Shown in pieces: positions 1 through 59,886 of a DNA stretch of 64,000 nt. Numbering within the stretch: position 1 is the stretch's first letter; every line of letters starts with the position of its first letter. A program made the translations under genes and the position numbers. The stretch covers positions 1,922,001-1,986,000 of the forward strand of contig NZ_CP042437.1 in the NCBI RefSeq assembly GCF_007971525.1, written 5' to 3'. The notes below the pieces were generated by a model. It was not told the DNA's origin. It saw only the letters and a program-made list of their open reading frames with translations, and did no database searches. The DNA is from Mucilaginibacter ginsenosidivorax. Lineage in GTDB: Bacteria > Bacteroidota > Bacteroidia > Sphingobacteriales > Sphingobacteriaceae.

Positions 1-248
1 TTGATTTTATATGGCCAATGGCTATCACTATGCGTGCCCTTACCTCGACGGATAAATTAGAGATTACCCGTTGCCTGCATATGCTTAAAAACACGCACGC
101 CGGCACCGGTTTTATGCACGAAGGTTTCCATAAGGATAATGCTAATAACTTCACCCGCAAATGGTTTGCCTGGGCAAATACCCTGTTTGGCGAACTGATT
201 GTTAAACTGCACGCGCACCATCCGGATTTGTTGCAGAAAATTTTTTAA
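1..248 (+). CDS. GH125 family exo-alpha-mannosidase, C-terminal end (partial)
   Basis: The gene is cut by the left edge of the window; codons are read from base 3. The visible 81 residues contain DFIWPMAITMRALTS near the start and an ending with FHKDN, FTRKWFAWANTLFGEL, which is the typical C-terminus of glycoside hydrolase family 125 (formerly DUF1237), metal-independent mannosidases that release mannose from alpha-1,6-linked substrates. The catalytic acid region and any signal peptide lie outside the window. An ATG at 18 opens the same frame but is internal, because the frame is open and family-like before it. The gene ends just before a strong terminator. Family call is confident; substrate is not testable here. 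Confidence 0.85.
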   Translation, partial: DFIWPMAITMRALTSTDKLEITRCLHMLKNTHAGTGFMHEGFHKDNANNFTRKWFAWANTLFGELIVKLHAHHPDLLQKIF

Positions 249-276
249 CGAGCGCTGAATAATCATAAAAATGCAG

Positions 277-309
277 AAGCTGTCACTTTTTAAGCGACAG
301 CTTTTTTTA
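277..309 (+). terminator. Rho-independent terminator after GH125 gene
   Basis: An 8-bp perfect stem (aagctgtc at 277-284 with gacagctt at 296-303) is followed by a run of T. It lies 29 bases after the stop of the GH125 gene. The T run is on the plus strand, as expected for this gene. Confidence 0.8.
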
Positions 310-452
310 CATTACCGGCGCGGTATTTTAACATATAATTAGTATAGCATACCTATTAAATATCCTTACCTTTAATTGGGTTTAGCCAATTAGCAATTTC
401 AAGCCCCATAAACCTAAACAAGTTATCAAAATTAACCTTACAAGTACAAAAA

Positions 453-1244
453 ATGAGAAAAACAATTAAAGCGATAATCACATCAGTGGTGTTATTGTTG
501 CTGGCCGGCCCTTTGGCTGCCCAGTCGGTTTCCTACAAATCGGGGATGCTTAGTGTTGATGGCAAAGAGATTGCCAGGATAGTAAAGCTTAAAGCCGGGT
601 TTGCCCAGCCCGCCAATTACGAACTGTATTCCATGAGCGGCGAAAAACTGATCATCGCCGTATTGGCCAGTGATTTGCCCCCTGATCCTCAAAACAATAC
701 TGACTTTTACTATCGCTTCTCTTTTTTAACAACCAGCCAGGTGGGCTTATTTACACTGAGTATATTAAGTGCCGAAAAATCTTTTGCTAAACTAATAGGC
801 CAAAGCGGGATAATAGTTGATGATAAGCTTAACGAGGCAAAAATAAACGAGTTTATAGCACTGAAAAGCAAGAACCCTATTGTACGAACAGAATACAATA
901 TTGTAAAAAGAAACATGATGTTTCCTGTTATGATAAAAGACGATAACATGATTTACCAGGGATTGGAAGCTATTGGCAAGTTTAAAAATATTTCATCGGG
1001 TCCCGAGGGCGACACTTATGAATTTAGTCTACCCGATGGGTTGATAGTTGTCAAGGTGAGTTTTAGCGGTGGTAACAGTGCATCTAAATTTATCATAAAC
1101 ACCAAAAAGGATAGCCAAACTATGGCGTACACCATAGCGCCTGATGGATTTGGTAAAACTATTATTGCTTCTGCCGGGGTAGATAAAAACGAACATACCA
1201 TATTACGAATAGCCAAGTGGCTGGTAAACGGGAAATATATGTAG
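453..1244 (+). CDS. Secreted protein of unknown function (263 aa)
   Basis: No family is recognised. The N-terminus MRKTIKAIITSVVLLLLAG is a clear signal peptide, with probable cleavage after PLAAQ, so the mature protein should be periplasmic or envelope-associated. The rest is soluble in character, with alternating beta-like segments (YELYSMSGEKLIIAVLA, TYEFSLPDGLIVVKVSF) and no further membrane segment. It is a single gene: the GH125 terminator lies upstream and a large hairpin plus a convergent gene lie downstream. No Shine-Dalgarno is seen; the leader is A-rich, as is common in Bacteroidota. Confidence 0.7.
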   Translation: MRKTIKAIITSVVLLLLAGPLAAQSVSYKSGMLSVDGKEIARIVKLKAGFAQPANYELYSMSGEKLIIAVLASDLPPDPQNNTDFYYRFSFLTTSQVGLFTLSILSAEKSFAKLIGQSGIIVDDKLNEAKINEFIALKSKNPIVRTEYNIVKRNMMFPVMIKDDNMIYQGLEAIGKFKNISSGPEGDTYEFSLPDGLIVVKVSFSGGNSASKFIINTKKDSQTMAYTIAPDGFGKTIIASAGVDKNEHTILRIAKWLVNGKYM

Positions 1245-1255
1245 GATTAAGCCAT

Positions 1256-1305
1256 AAGTCGGGAGTCTTAAGCCTGAAGTTTTTCTGACTTAAGACTCCC
1301 GACTT
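1256..1305. terminator. Perfect 17-bp hairpin between convergent genes
   Basis: Arms 1256-1272 and 1289-1305 are perfect reverse complements (aagtcgggagtcttaag and its complement) around a 16-base loop. The hairpin sits between the convergent genes ending at 1244 and 1324, so it could terminate both. There is no long T run on either side, so it may instead be a dispersed intergenic repeat of the kind seen elsewhere in this window. Confidence 0.6.
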
Positions 1306-1323
1306 TGGACTAAATTTGCTTTT

Positions 1324-2088
1324 CTAAAATAACGGCCTCCCCAGCATAGCATTATAAAATAATAGCGAAACGGCTATAAAATAAACACTTGCAAAAATAA
1401 CCGCCGGCCTGCTATTTTTAACCCCGCTGAAAACAACAAACAGCGGTATAATTTGCAACGCGTGCAGGCCCATGAAATGGGCTATCCGTAAATCGCCGGC
1501 TATACGGCTCCAGTTAAAAAGCGGCAGGCCAGGGCTGCCATCGGCAGCGCCTACTGTGTGGGCCAGTCGCGATGCCATTACACCGCCTTCAAGCGCGAAG
1601 ATGCAAGCCATAATTATACCCAGGCGGATAGCCCACAGCAAAGCGGGTGTTAATTTTACAGCCTTCACCTTAAAAAACTTTATTCCAATGTATAGGGCAA
1701 ACAGCGTTTGCGACACTATCACTATCCCCATCGTACTAAATACAAGCGCATTATAAGCACCCGAAGTATTATAGTGTGATAGCTGTCCTCTTGCGGCCTG
1801 CGTGGCGATGGCCAGCATCTCAAAACTCATGGCAAAAACTGTAAAATTCACGAAGCGCCTCTTGAGCTGTTCATAAGGCAGGTATTGCAGCAGCAAGGGC
1901 CATGTTAGGCAGTATATGGCGATGGAGATTGCAAATTTGATGGGCTTTGTCCACAAATTAATCCCCATCAGTTGGCGATGATCAAATTGGGCGATGATGA
2001 GCATCAGTATAAATAAGGCTAAATGACCCAACGCGCAGTAATAAAGAAGCGGACTAATAGTCTTGATACGGACGAATAAGGTTTTCAT
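1324..2088 (-). CDS. Multi-pass membrane protein, partner of ABA4-like gene
   Basis: This 254-residue integral membrane protein has about seven hydrophobic segments (for example YYCALGHLALFILMLII, IAIYCLTWPLLL, IAGDLRIAHFMGLHALQIIPLFVVF). The frame is open further upstream to 2181, but the start at 2088 is preferred because its ATG overlaps the TGA of the preceding gene in an ATGA junction, which implies translational coupling. Conserved-looking polar points include HFMGLHALQ and a Trp-Thr-Lys-Pro loop. No function is assigned. The pairing with the ABA4-like gene suggests the two membrane proteins act together, which is inference. Confidence 0.65.
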   Translation of the reverse strand: MKTLFVRIKTISPLLYYCALGHLALFILMLIIAQFDHRQLMGINLWTKPIKFAISIAIYCLTWPLLLQYLPYEQLKRRFVNFTVFAMSFEMLAIATQAARGQLSHYNTSGAYNALVFSTMGIVIVSQTLFALYIGIKFFKVKAVKLTPALLWAIRLGIIMACIFALEGGVMASRLAHTVGAADGSPGLPLFNWSRIAGDLRIAHFMGLHALQIIPLFVVFSGVKNSRPAVIFASVYFIAVSLLFYNAMLGRPLF

Positions 2089-2501
2089 TTGGATGATTTT
2101 ATTTTGTGGACAATTTGATAAAGTAAATAGCCGCAAGGGCCAAACATAAAGGTGAGCACCAGGCAAGGTATAACCAGCCAATGCGGGACCGCCGAAGCCC
2201 TGGCCGATTTAACTATAGAAAAACCGATCAATAAATCAAAAGCGAGGTAGTGGACCCAACCGGCAAGTAACAGGTTATCGTTACTAAAGAGGATACGAAC
2301 TTCCTGTACCGACCCAAAACCACCGCCATGGATACCGAAAAAGCCGGCAATGTAAATGCAATAAATTACCGAAAGCAATAATGGGACAGCAGCGTGGTTA
2401 ACCAACCACTGCGTAACTTTCCATTTATGCAATGCAATTAACAAAAGCCACTGCAATGCTGCGATGGCGCTAACGACGGAAAAAACCTGCGAGGCATTCA
2501 T
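2085..2501 (-). CDS. ABA4-like (DUF4281-type) membrane protein
   Basis: The 138-residue protein has four hydrophobic segments and the features of the ABA4-like family: an early WLLLIALHKWK segment, a G-rich GFFGIHGGGFGSVQEVRILF loop, a GWVHYLAFDLLIG segment and a C-terminal FMFGPCGYLLYQI. ABA4 in plants is needed for neoxanthin synthesis, but bacterial homologues have no settled role. The stop codon overlaps the start of the next membrane gene. The family call rests on the WxHYLAFDL and FGPxGYLLY segments. Confidence 0.7.
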   Translation of the reverse strand: MNASQVFSVVSAIAALQWLLLIALHKWKVTQWLVNHAAVPLLLSVIYCIYIAGFFGIHGGGFGSVQEVRILFSNDNLLLAGWVHYLAFDLLIGFSIVKSARASAVPHWLVIPCLVLTFMFGPCGYLLYQIVHKIKSSK

Positions 2502-2699
2502 ATTATTTTGATTTTGTGGTGTTGTTTTTATTTAAAAGCCTGCTAATTAACTCCAGCCTGGTAACGTTGACCTGGCTAAAAATCAAGCGTTTTGAGCCTT
2601 CTGCTTAAAGCTTTACAATGCACAGCACAAAACTGGGACTAATAGCTTAGCCGTGAAATGATATGAGGTTAAAAAGCGAAGTTGATTTATTAACCTAAG

Positions 2700-3281
2700 T
2701 TAACTTTTGGCGTTTGACAGCCTGGCCCTAATGCGGCTAAGGCTTTGCGGCTGAATGCCCAGGTATGAGGCAATTAAATGCTGGGGGAGCCTTTCAAATA
2801 TATGGGGCTGTTTGGTAAGCAGTTCAAGGTACCGGTCTTCGGCCGATTGCATTTTTAAATTCCGGTTGTTCCTGGCGGTGTCAATAAACAGTCTTTCGGC
2901 TATTATACGGCCAAAGCGTTCAAAGCGCTGGCTATGGTTATACAAGGCCTGCATGTCGGCGTAGCTCAGGGTAAATAGCTCGCAATCTTCCAGCGCTTCA
3001 ATAAAATCAGGCGATGGGGTTTGTAATAAAAAACTTTCGTAATCGCCAATCCATTCGCCCTCAAATGCAAAACCTAAAGTATTGTCGCCCTTCTCGCTGC
3101 GCGAAAAATATCTTAACCCGCCCCTAAATACAATGACCATGCTTTTGCAAACCTGGCCTTCTTTTAAGTAAAAAGCATACTTTTTTAAGCTGAGCGGCTT
3201 AAGCCTTTGCATAAATAAAAAAAGCTCCTCGTCGGTAAAATCAACCAGTGCGCGTAATGATTGGGTAATAACTTCGTACAT
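2700..3281 (-). CDS. Crp/Fnr-family transcriptional regulator
   Basis: The 193-residue protein has an N-terminal cyclic-nucleotide-binding-like beta barrel (about residues 20-115, with FYLKEGQVCKSMVIVFRGGLRYF and the GEWIGDYESFL segment), a long dimerisation helix (about 115-145) and a C-terminal winged-helix DNA-binding domain ending IASYLGIQPQSLSRIRARL. This is the common short Bacteroidota Crp/Fnr type, which usually lacks the Fnr cysteines and the full cAMP-binding motif; neither is seen here. The ligand is therefore unknown. The gene stands alone; a -7-like box lies 48 bases upstream of the start. Confidence 0.85.
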   Translation of the reverse strand: MYEVITQSLRALVDFTDEELFLFMQRLKPLSLKKYAFYLKEGQVCKSMVIVFRGGLRYFSRSEKGDNTLGFAFEGEWIGDYESFLLQTPSPDFIEALEDCELFTLSYADMQALYNHSQRFERFGRIIAERLFIDTARNNRNLKMQSAEDRYLELLTKQPHIFERLPQHLIASYLGIQPQSLSRIRARLSNAKS

Positions 3282-3328
3282 GGTAAAAACCTGCTGGCCG
3301 GTGGCTATTTTAGTAAAAACTGCTATAC

Positions 3329-3336
3329 CAAAGATA
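3329..3336 (-). promoter_or_regulatory. -7 box (TATCTTTG) for the Crp/Fnr gene
   Basis: On the minus strand the sequence reads TATCTTTG, a full match to the Bacteroidota TAnnTTTG element. It lies 48 bases before the ATG of the regulator. No clear TTTG at the -33 position was found, so this is a moderate call. Confidence 0.45.
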
Positions 3337-3375
3337 CACGAATAATTGAAATTGCCGTTTAACCCGCCCTGCGGG

Positions 3376-3470
3376 GCTGCTACTTTTTGTACACGGTTTT
3401 TAGAAACGTACCACTAAACAAAACCGCTGTCATTTCCTTTTATAAAAAGCTGTGTACACACAGTAGCCGC
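3376..3470. repeat. Imperfect inverted repeat, 21-bp arms
   Basis: The arm at 3376-3396 (gctgctactttttgtacacg...) pairs with 3450-3470 at 17 of 21 positions. The arms enclose about 53 bases. It lies in the gene-free region between the Crp/Fnr and H1-like genes and could be a structured RNA leader or another dispersed hairpin. Confidence 0.5.
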
Positions 3471-57001: not shown

Positions 57002-57475
57002 TTAGTGTTGCTGTTGTTGAGGATGAGCCTGGCCCTGGCCATATTGGTTCTGTACCTGAACAGCACGCTGCTGCTGCTGTGACTGCATTAACGCTAAACC
57101 TGCTAACTGCGAAGCCATTTGGTTACCAATCTGCGACTGACCCTGCGCATAGCCATTTTGATTTTGCAACTGCTGTTGATATTGCTGCTGTTGTTGTTGA
57201 GCCTGAATTTGCTGCATTTGCAATTGCTGCTGCCGACCGTATTGCTGATATTGCTGTTGCTGGATTTGCTGCTGCCGTTGCTGTTGCTGCTGTTGTTGCT
57301 GGACATGGGCTTGCTGGGCGGCCTGCTGAGCGACCTGCAATTGCTGCAATGCCTGCATCGACTGCTGTATTTGTTGCTGCTGCTGTTGATTTAAAGGTTG
57401 CTGCTGCTGCTGCTGAGCCATAGACTTTAAAGCCAGCAAAGCAACTAACGACGCGGATAATATGATCTTTTTCAT
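57002..57475 (-). CDS. Secreted glutamine-rich protein (157 aa)
   Basis: Signal peptide MKKIILSASLVALLALKSMA, then a mature part of 137 residues of which I count 76 as Gln (about 55 percent). Runs of up to seven or more Gln are broken by A, L, I, Y, M and R. A less extreme stretch GNQMASQLAGLALM lies near residue 120. Both CAG and CAA codons are used, so this is not a simple trinucleotide slippage tract. The composition suggests a coiled coil or a prion-like aggregating domain outside the cytosol. No family is assigned. A second small secreted protein gene lies 66 bp upstream on the same strand. Confidence 0.75.
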   Translation of the reverse strand: MKKIILSASLVALLALKSMAQQQQQQPLNQQQQQQIQQSMQALQQLQVAQQAAQQAHVQQQQQQQQRQQQIQQQQYQQYGRQQQLQMQQIQAQQQQQQYQQQLQNQNGYAQGQSQIGNQMASQLAGLALMQSQQQQRAVQVQNQYGQGQAHPQQQQH

Positions 57476-57540: not shown

Positions 57541-57942
57541 TTAATGATGGTCGTGATCAGGCGCATCATGATGTTCATGCTCCTGGTGCTCCGACCGATC
57601 AGCATGATCTGAATGATCGGCATGCTCCGAGTGATCTGAATGCTCTACCTGACGACCATTCACCTCGCGGGTACCATCAGGGTGATCGATAATAGTAGTT
57701 GTCCTATTAGTGTCGTGATCACGGATGATCGTATTTCGGTCACCATTGGCCGAGGTAAAGGTTTCCCTTACCGAGCGGCCATTTTGATCACGGCCAACGT
57801 CTACCCTGGAGCCACCCGTGCCGTTGTAATGATCGCGGGCGAATTCTGCCTGTGATCGTTCCTGGGCAGACACGTCTGCCCTTTGTGCAAATGCTGCTGA
57901 ACCCGCCAGCAGCAATAATGCTGCGATTATTAACTTTTTCAT
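57541..57942 (-). CDS. Secreted His/Asp-rich protein (133 aa)
   Basis: Signal peptide MKKLIIAALLLLAGSAAFA, then a polar middle with two beta-like repeats (DVGRDQNGRSVRETF; NRTTTIIDHPDGTREV) and a C-terminal tail of about 35 residues made of H-S-D, H-A-D, H-E and D-H units ending HDAPDHDHH. Such a tail could bind divalent metals such as zinc, nickel or copper in the periplasm. No family is recognised. It precedes the glutamine-rich gene and may be expressed with it. Confidence 0.72.
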   Translation of the reverse strand: MKKLIIAALLLLAGSAAFAQRADVSAQERSQAEFARDHYNGTGGSRVDVGRDQNGRSVRETFTSANGDRNTIIRDHDTNRTTTIIDHPDGTREVNGRQVEHSDHSEHADHSDHADRSEHQEHEHHDAPDHDHH

Positions 57943-58380: not shown

Positions 58381-58503
58381 TTAGAAACTATAAATAGTTC
58401 CTCGATCCATTTGGTCCGGAGTAGACGGCATATCAAATCCCGTCATACCGGTACTCCAGCCATGTAGGACCGGATTGGTATTAAAGGTGATCGATTTTGC
58501 CAT
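58381..58503 (-). CDS. Tiny 40-residue gene divergent from M41 protease
   Basis: The frame encodes MAKSITFNTNPVLHGWSTGM then TGFDMPSTPDQMDRGTIYSF. It is a polar peptide with Trp, several Gly and Thr, no Cys and no signal. A promoter pattern, TTTG (58555-58558 on the minus strand), 19 bases, TATTATTG (58528-58535), lies 24 bases upstream of the ATG, which supports expression. It points away from the M41-type gene that begins 125 bases to the right. It could be a leader peptide, a small regulator or a substrate of the protease; none is shown. Confidence 0.5.
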   Translation of the reverse strand: MAKSITFNTNPVLHGWSTGMTGFDMPSTPDQMDRGTIYSF

Positions 58504-58527
58504 TTGTTTAATTGTTTTTTGTTGATG

Positions 58528-58558
58528 CAATAATAAGTAGTAAAACTGAAATCTCAAA
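58528..58558 (-). promoter_or_regulatory. Predicted promoter of the 40-residue gene
   Basis: On the minus strand TTTG (plus 58555-58558), a 19-base spacer and TATTATTG (plus 58528-58535) match the -33/-7 pattern with one change in the -7 box. Confidence 0.5.
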
Positions 58559-58612
58559 ATTTATTTTTATTTTTTTTTAAAATAATATCCAAATAAGAAC
58601 TAATAGGTTGTG

Positions 58613-58620
58613 TAGTTTTG
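58613..58620 (+). promoter_or_regulatory. -7 box (TAGTTTTG) of the M41-type gene
   Basis: A full TAnnTTTG match 7 bases before the ATG at 58628. This supports the ATG over the GTG at 58622 and implies a near-leaderless message. Confidence 0.5.
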
Positions 58621-58627
58621 CGTGCTA

Positions 58628-59311
58628 ATGAAACAAATGGTCAAACGCTTAAAAAAATGGAGAAACCGTTTACGTTATTATTTTACCACGCCCAAGGGAA
58701 AAGTAAGGCGCACCTGTTACCATGAGGCCGGGCATTACATGGCCGCCTGGCTGTTCCCACAGCTGCTGGGCGTGAATTATGTAACGATCGATCGGAAAAA
58801 CATCGACCCGCAGTATCGCGGCGGCGTGCATATGAGCAAACTAACGCCTGGGCATGAAACCTGGCAGGAAGCGGAAAAGATTATGCTGGTGAACGTGGCA
58901 GGCATGGCGGCCACCACTATCTATAGCCATGGCTCGTCTTATGTCAGGAAGAAAATATCTTTGTTTCCAAACGACGAAACACTGGTGGATGCCCACGGCG
59001 GTACAGATGATTATACGGCAGCCATAGGAAACGCGAGAACAACGCTGTTTCACCTGCGTATCGATCCAGCACGGCTATACTGGCAGGGTTTTCAGTTCAT
59101 GTGTTTAGCCCTGATGAATCCTGTGATCTGGGAGGCGTTAACCTTACTCGCCGAAAATTTATATACTAATGAAGAAAAGAAACTGACCGAAGCGCAGATT
59201 AGTGCTTTATTCGCCTCTAAACTGGATGTTAGTACTTTGGCTCATGCACGTATGGAGATATTGAACCAAAGGTATCCTTTAAACCGCCAAAATTTATACC
59301 GTTTATACTAA
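58628..59311 (+). CDS. Free-standing M41 (FtsH-type) peptidase domain
   Basis: A 227-residue protein that aligns by eye only with the protease half of FtsH: HEAGH at residues 32-36 followed by YMAAWLFP, then VTIDRKN...RGGVHMSKL, which matches FtsH's VSIIPRG...LGVTMFLP, and TDDY (residues 126-129) in the place of the third zinc ligand Asp. FtsH normally has membrane helices and an AAA ATPase; neither is here, and no ATPase lies next to it. The start is basic (KQMVKRLKKWRNRLRYYF). It may be a domain that works with another ATPase, or an ATP-independent peptidase. Confidence 0.75.
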   Translation: MKQMVKRLKKWRNRLRYYFTTPKGKVRRTCYHEAGHYMAAWLFPQLLGVNYVTIDRKNIDPQYRGGVHMSKLTPGHETWQEAEKIMLVNVAGMAATTIYSHGSSYVRKKISLFPNDETLVDAHGGTDDYTAAIGNARTTLFHLRIDPARLYWQGFQFMCLALMNPVIWEALTLLAENLYTNEEKKLTEAQISALFASKLDVSTLAHARMEILNQRYPLNRQNLYRLY

Positions 59312-59886
59312 AGGCTTTTCAGCTTTCGCCAGACCCGCGCGAACATGCGTAAAATGATAAAAAAGGTTACCTCAGTAGGCTCTCTTCATTCCTTGCCTCA
59401 ATAGTACAAGAGCCTCCCCCGCTGCCCGTAGTGTTCCGCTGTTCGAAGTCTCCAGACTTCGAACCACTATGCATGTAGTCTCTGACTACCCCAGCTGTTA
59501 ATTACCCTCGCCAACCGAAAACATTGGAAACAACGGTCTGTGAGGACACAGACCGTGGAGGAGAAAAATATATTTAATAATCAACAACTTACAATCACGA
59601 TCCTTATAGATCGTTGATTATCAATATAAAATATACGTCATTGCGAGGCACGAAGCAATCCCTTAAATGCTAAGTCCCACATAGTTCGGGATTGCTTCGT
59701 ACCTCGCAATGACGGTAGTTTTAGAACATTCGTTTAACGATATCAGTTGAACGCCATAACAATTTTTTTCAGGTTTTAACTGATGGACACTCGCAATGAC
59801 GATCACAAGAAAGTTGCAGCATCCTTACATGTTACTACCAGGGCGGTCTGTGAGACCGTGTAGAAGAGACCATCCTATCCCCTCCC
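59312..59886. other. 575-bp gene-free region packed with repeats
   Basis: No gene is seen. It holds a family H palindrome at 59441-59464 (gttcgaagtct and its complement) with the linked tagtctctgactacccc, a 10-bp hairpin at 59533-59556 (acggtctgtg/cacagaccgt) with a partial second copy near 59842, and family B copy 2. Confidence 0.65.
59636..59714. repeat. Family B inverted repeat, copy 2
   Basis: Arms 59636-59662 and 59688-59714 (cgtcattgcgaggcacgaag... and complement) are 27 bp long with one mismatch and match copy 1 at 37202 in both arms while the loops differ. Confidence 0.85.

Follow-up and report, generated by a model that had tools for sequence, protein, structure and literature searches.

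The third zinc ligand of M41 peptidases is an Asp within a helix that reads ND(L)..AT. In E. coli FtsH this Asp is found 74 residues after HExxH (PMC11266112). A precedent for a separated FtsH-type domain is VIR3 of Arabidopsis, a plastid membrane protein and putative metalloprotease that contains HEAGH and has no ATP-binding domain (PMC9166295). The Arabidopsis FtsHi1-5 proteins are inactive FtsH pseudoproteases that keep the AAA ATPase and occur in plastid membrane complexes (PMC8197885, PMC11266112). Literature searches returned neither bacterial solo M41 proteins nor any bacterial family that combines the solo form with loss of activity in most members.

The M41-like gene and its product

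The gene considered here was found in the window, by which we mean the whole stretch of 64,000 nucleotides that was analysed. The first-pass annotation described its product as an M41-type protein with HEAGH, the strand segment that follows it and a TDDY site, and inspection of the sequence and translation confirmed all three. The features are:

58613..58620, plus strand: TAGTTTTG, a -7-like element (TAnnTTTG) just 5' of the M41-like gene, from sequence inspection
58622..59311, plus strand: M41-like coding sequence, the longest frame from GTG 58622, 229 aa, from the open reading frame list
58721..58735, plus strand: HEAGH (residues 34-38 in the GTG frame), putative zinc-binding/catalytic motif
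59003..59014, plus strand: TDDY, with Asp130 (59009-59011) as candidate third zinc ligand
59270..59281, plus strand: RYPL (R217-Y218-P219-L220), a family signature outside the M41 core

Depending on the start codon, the protein has a length of 224-229 aa. Translation likely starts at ATG 58637 (MVKRLKKW...) or ATG 58628, with GTG 58622 as a possible start. The ATG codons are preferred because a relative (L038/L041) begins with MWSRVKKLLKKL, which matches MVKRLKKW. From the position of TAGTTTTG, transcription of the gene would begin near 58625; sequence inspection revealed no good -33 element to go with it. In the protein, HEAGH is followed by a strand and Gly-Gly segment. Neither the Pfam search nor the ORF translation indicated an AAA domain in the 229-aa frame, in agreement with the annotation. 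The claim that membrane helices are missing holds with a reservation. The most hydrophobic 19-residue stretch, FMCLALMNPVIWEALTLLA, has a mean Kyte-Doolittle value of 1.68, which is borderline. With N, P, W and E among its residues, it does not amount to a clear membrane helix.

The surroundings of the gene contain other features. Downstream, at 59627-59723, lies an inverted repeat of 36 nt built around the core CATTGCGAGGNACGAAGCAATC. This core occurs in 145 copies in the genome (G000; 72 forward, 73 reverse) and in none in a reversed control, and the copies are often paired arms about 50 nt apart, as in a dispersed REP-like element. On the minus strand, 57002-57475 and 57541-57942 encode two adjoining secreted-type proteins, one extremely glutamine-rich and one with a histidine-rich tail.

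Relatives and the fate of the zinc motif

A single-protein search of the bacterial family to which the host belongs matched 27 of 399 genomes, which are the window's own genome and 26 genomes of one sister genus. We take the sister genus to be Pedobacter and the own genus to be Mucilaginibacter. With a profile, single-copy relatives were detected in 38 of 145 genomes of the sister genus, and relatives in two of 149 genomes of the own genus (G000, the window's own, and G806). In a sample of the class the profile search found two of 395 genomes, one being again the window's own. When about 85,000 species genomes were scanned for the branch of the HEAGHYM type, a single locus emerged. This is L041, from a MAG with the title 'Bacteroidetes bacterium NGEE_A_bin6', and it encodes the same protein as G806/L038. 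This relative has zero Pfam matches, shares 29-31% identity with the window protein (E 2e-33), and retains HEAGHYM and GDY. A further match in the own genus (G196) is weak, covers 43 residues and carries three stops; it was taken as chance.

The related genes are likewise free-standing, of similar length and without an AAA part, and a tree splits the window protein and L038 from 37 sister-genus proteins with a support of 99/100. Their neighbours vary by clade, with a helicase gene in one, a cold-shock gene together with molybdenum-cofactor genes in another, and a kdp operon in L041, all named from our reading of the sequences. Searches of phage records with the window protein and with a sister-genus member found no relatives, family members were found neither on plasmids nor in viral contigs, and the neighbours of the M41-like gene resemble ordinary chromosomal genes; an origin as phage or plasmid gene was rejected on these grounds. 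Pfam M41 matches in 238 genomes of the phylum included no solo M41 gene among the best-scoring matches listed. The family is apparently small and unnamed. Since the genome searches are a sample, it may occur more widely.

The alignment of the family comprises 39 sequences, namely the window protein, L038 and the 37 sister-genus proteins. None of these 37 has the first His of HExxH, and the motif is replaced by AAAQF (27 proteins), E(A/T)AHY (nine) or NAAQY (one). The Asp is retained in 36 of the 37, and in 38 of the 39 family members, and the Tyr of TDDY in all 39. The RYPL segment is unchanged throughout (39/39), and the other positions that are invariant in all 39 sequences, besides the start Met, are L17, A42, F45, L89, G104, P116, Y131 and W154. 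The strongest family-wide constraint falls outside the zinc motif. The sister-genus genes evolve under purifying selection, with a median dN/dS of 0.094 (220 pairs, dS 0.2-1.5), which indicates that they encode conserved proteins and are not decaying. If a pseudopeptidase is taken to be the product of a conserved gene that has lost HExxH, these 37 relatives qualify, and the window protein with its HEAGH does not. The earlier label 'protease' is not a safe one for the family as a whole.

The absence of HExxH from all 37 sister-genus relatives examined, together with purifying selection, means that catalysis is not the conserved property of the family, and the shared job is probably not proteolysis. 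Judged from conservation, the common function is most likely binding, with catalysis as an option. Regarding the gene itself, we consider it fairly probable that it encodes a soluble, free-standing derivative of the FtsH/M41 peptidase domain and that it is among the few family members with a complete zinc motif. Regarding the family, the evidence leaves an even chance that these are free-standing, M41-derived bacterial binding proteins, non-proteolytic and with an invariant RYPL, of which nearly all are pseudopeptidases and the window protein represents a rare branch with the zinc motif.

The main competing explanation is that the window protein itself is already a functional pseudopeptidase or scaffold, in which HEAGH is an ancestral leftover and whose only mode of action is to bind a partner with its conserved C-terminal half and RYPL. 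The strong conservation of sister-genus proteins that lack HExxH and the location of the strongest constraint would agree with this. However, the window protein and L041 both keep HEAGHYM and the Asp although they are only 29-31% identical, and the persistence of these residues in two divergent members suggests that the site has kept a role there. We regard a leftover motif as unlikely, though it is the alternative that deserves most weight.

The sister-genus genes (e.g. at L092, L094 and L100) also share non-ATG starts. The start codon is TTG in 36 of the 37 and GTG in one, and a leader motif, GAACCGAAC or GAACCAAAC, is conserved in most of them some 10-25 nt upstream of the start. The conserved non-ATG start may reflect translational control.

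Relationship to the M41 family

In Pfam searches M41 (PF01434) was the sole family to match the window protein, with an E-value of 0.018 and a score of 15.4 bits, below the curated cut-off of 29.9 bits. The FtsH equivalog of NCBIfam (TIGR01241) scored 12.6, far under its cut-off of 600. No family of Pfam, NCBIfam or PHROG reaches its threshold for the window protein's family. Custom M41 profiles gave 27.5 bits in all; they had been derived from plasmid-borne AAA-M41 proteins and from the FtsH proteins that related genomes encode. The main stretch comprises residues 28-100, which align to the M41 profile with a single-comparison E-value of 2.6e-10. None of 2000 shuffles in which YHEAGH or 13 residues around it were kept fixed reached the observed score, with either profile, so the similarity of the window protein to M41 goes beyond HEAGH. 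The motifs also follow the M41 order, with HEAGH, the strand and Gly-Gly, an AG..A helix, the acidic Asp motif and an LAE.L...LT..I helix, the last of which aligns weakly to the M41 profile. Outside the host's own bacterial family, the closest sequence in a plasmid collection belongs to a Bosea AAA-M41 protein, whose M41 part is 35% identical over 79 residues. Descent of the window protein from M41 is likely on the basis of its sequence.

The position of the third ligand is less direct. Asp130 lies 91 residues after HEAGH, farther than the 74 of E. coli FtsH, and the automatic alignment to the M41 profile ends before it. It is a candidate equivalent of the zinc-ligand Asp of FtsH, matched by position and motif order and not by the automatic profile alignment.

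The M41-like appearance could also have arisen in another lineage of HExxH metalloproteins that converged on HEAGH. When the whole family was compared with FtsH profile to profile, the match was confined to the HEAGH segment, which favours such convergence. Structure prediction did not produce a confident fold either: two AlphaFold2 runs (two sequences; core alone) gave a pLDDT of 38, and the M41 fold is thus inferred from sequence. Sequence searches of the PDB returned only FtsH matches, which were non-significant with E-values above 1. Convergence nevertheless appears quite improbable in view of the significant similarity beyond the motif in the shuffles, the order of the motifs, and the fact that no other Pfam family matches.

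The divergent 40-codon frame and the FtsH of the host

The first-pass annotation considered the M41 domain to have a small partner, encoded by a divergent gene of 40 codons with a good promoter pattern. The relevant features are:

58381..58503, minus strand: 40-codon ORF MAKSITFNTNPVLHGWSTGMTGFDMPSTPDQMDRGTIYSF, an ATG frame, 58 codons when read from an upstream TTG
58528..58558, minus strand: TTTG-N19-TATTATTG, a promoter-like element directed towards the 40-codon ORF, from sequence inspection

The ATG frame and the promoter-like element do exist. The element consists of TTTG at 58558-58555, a 19-nt spacer and TATTATTG at 58535-58528, with one mismatch to TAnnTTTG, the Bacteroidota-type consensus, and it overlaps the best sigma-70-like match. 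The promoter claim is weakened by the finding that such patterns occur at chance frequency in the region and in the window, since a sigma-70-type scan gave four sites with 3.7 expected and the strict TTTG/TAnnTTTG pattern is present four times in the window with 3.0 expected. Short ORFs are common here; 89 ORFs of at least 35 aa overlap 11 kb.

In a two-gene system, the 40-codon product would be a substrate, inhibitor or regulator of the protease, expressed from a common control region. The divergent layout, the promoter-like element with its 19-nt spacer and the A-rich leader that precedes the ATG of the small frame would fit such an arrangement. So would an imperfect 19-nt inverted repeat (84%, AAACAAATGG) formed by the start regions of the two frames (58495-58513 and 58627-58645), but this repeat may only mirror similar A-rich translation starts. 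No homologue of the small ORF exists in the other 148 genomes of the genus, where weak matches are at chance level, nor on plasmids. Its codon usage does not stand out from that of other frames and shows no coding bias. The annotation had itself made conservation of the frame decisive for its proposal, and among the 149 genomes of the genus the frame occurs in the window's own genome only. The pair did not turn up in other species either: at the L041 locus the ORF has no counterpart and the upstream gene encodes an unrelated 166-aa protein, sister-genus neighbours differ between clades, and the neighbourhoods of L041 and of sister-genus members revealed no partner gene that accompanies the family across loci. 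Because the 40-codon ORF is not conserved, the two-gene system, which we regard as very improbable, was rejected. The ORF is probably not a conserved gene and not a partner.

An origin as decaying FtsH fragment or recent pseudogene, for which one could cite the low M41 similarity and the sporadic presence in the genus (2/149), is hardly credible since the single-copy frame is open without stops, the genome has one intact FtsH elsewhere (C1:3160116, open frame of 703 aa), relatives of the same length without an AAA part share the family-specific C-terminal segment, and the sister clade shows purifying selection. The fragment that the annotation had named as an alternative can thus be discarded, and its proposal of a free-standing M41-type domain is supported by the shuffles, the M41 profile alignment, the free-standing relatives and this intact FtsH.

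Possible roles and comparison with known systems

In view of the above, the following scheme can be considered. The ancestor would have been an active M41-type peptidase domain that became detached from the AAA motor. Within the sister genus the domain would have turned into a pseudopeptidase, of which the groove and the RYPL tail bind a partner or a peptide. For the window protein the proposal is less sure: zinc could be bound via His34, His38 and Asp130, and the protein may then be an ATP-independent peptidase that cleaves either short or already unfolded substrates or a partner held by its conserved C-terminal part. The scheme has no necessary role for the 40-codon ORF. If true, the family would offer a compact and tractable case of a protease domain re-used as a binding protein. 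What stands out is the combination of a bacterial, detached and mostly catalytically dead domain with strong purifying selection and one branch that has the zinc motif.

The closest named relative outside the host's bacterial family is WP_149134502.1 of Bosea sp. F3-2, annotated as 'AAA family ATPase' and with a C-terminal M41 part. Such proteobacterial plasmid AAA-M41 proteins differ from the window protein in being fused to an AAA ATPase and have about 590-760 aa. On Bosea plasmid pB32-2 (L091) the fusion gene lies, within 180-3381, between genes for a GIY-YIG nuclease and an MbcA/ParS antitoxin-domain protein. The ends of the three genes overlap, and they possibly form a small plasmid operon.

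With FtsH (M41, PF01434/TIGR01241) the window protein shares HEAGH, the next strand and AG..A helix, the candidate Asp ligand and the C-terminal LAE.L...LT..I helix. In contrast to FtsH, it has no N-terminal membrane helices and no AAA ATPase, scores far under the family cut-offs, carries an extra C-terminal RYPL segment and has a longer distance between HEAGH and the Asp. VIR3 is similar, as far as its description goes, in being a HEAGH metalloprotease without an ATP-binding domain, but it is a plant protein of the plastid membrane. The FtsHi1-5 proteins resemble the sister-genus relatives in that the M41-type zinc motif was lost and the protein retained, whereas they differ from these relatives in still possessing the AAA ATPase.
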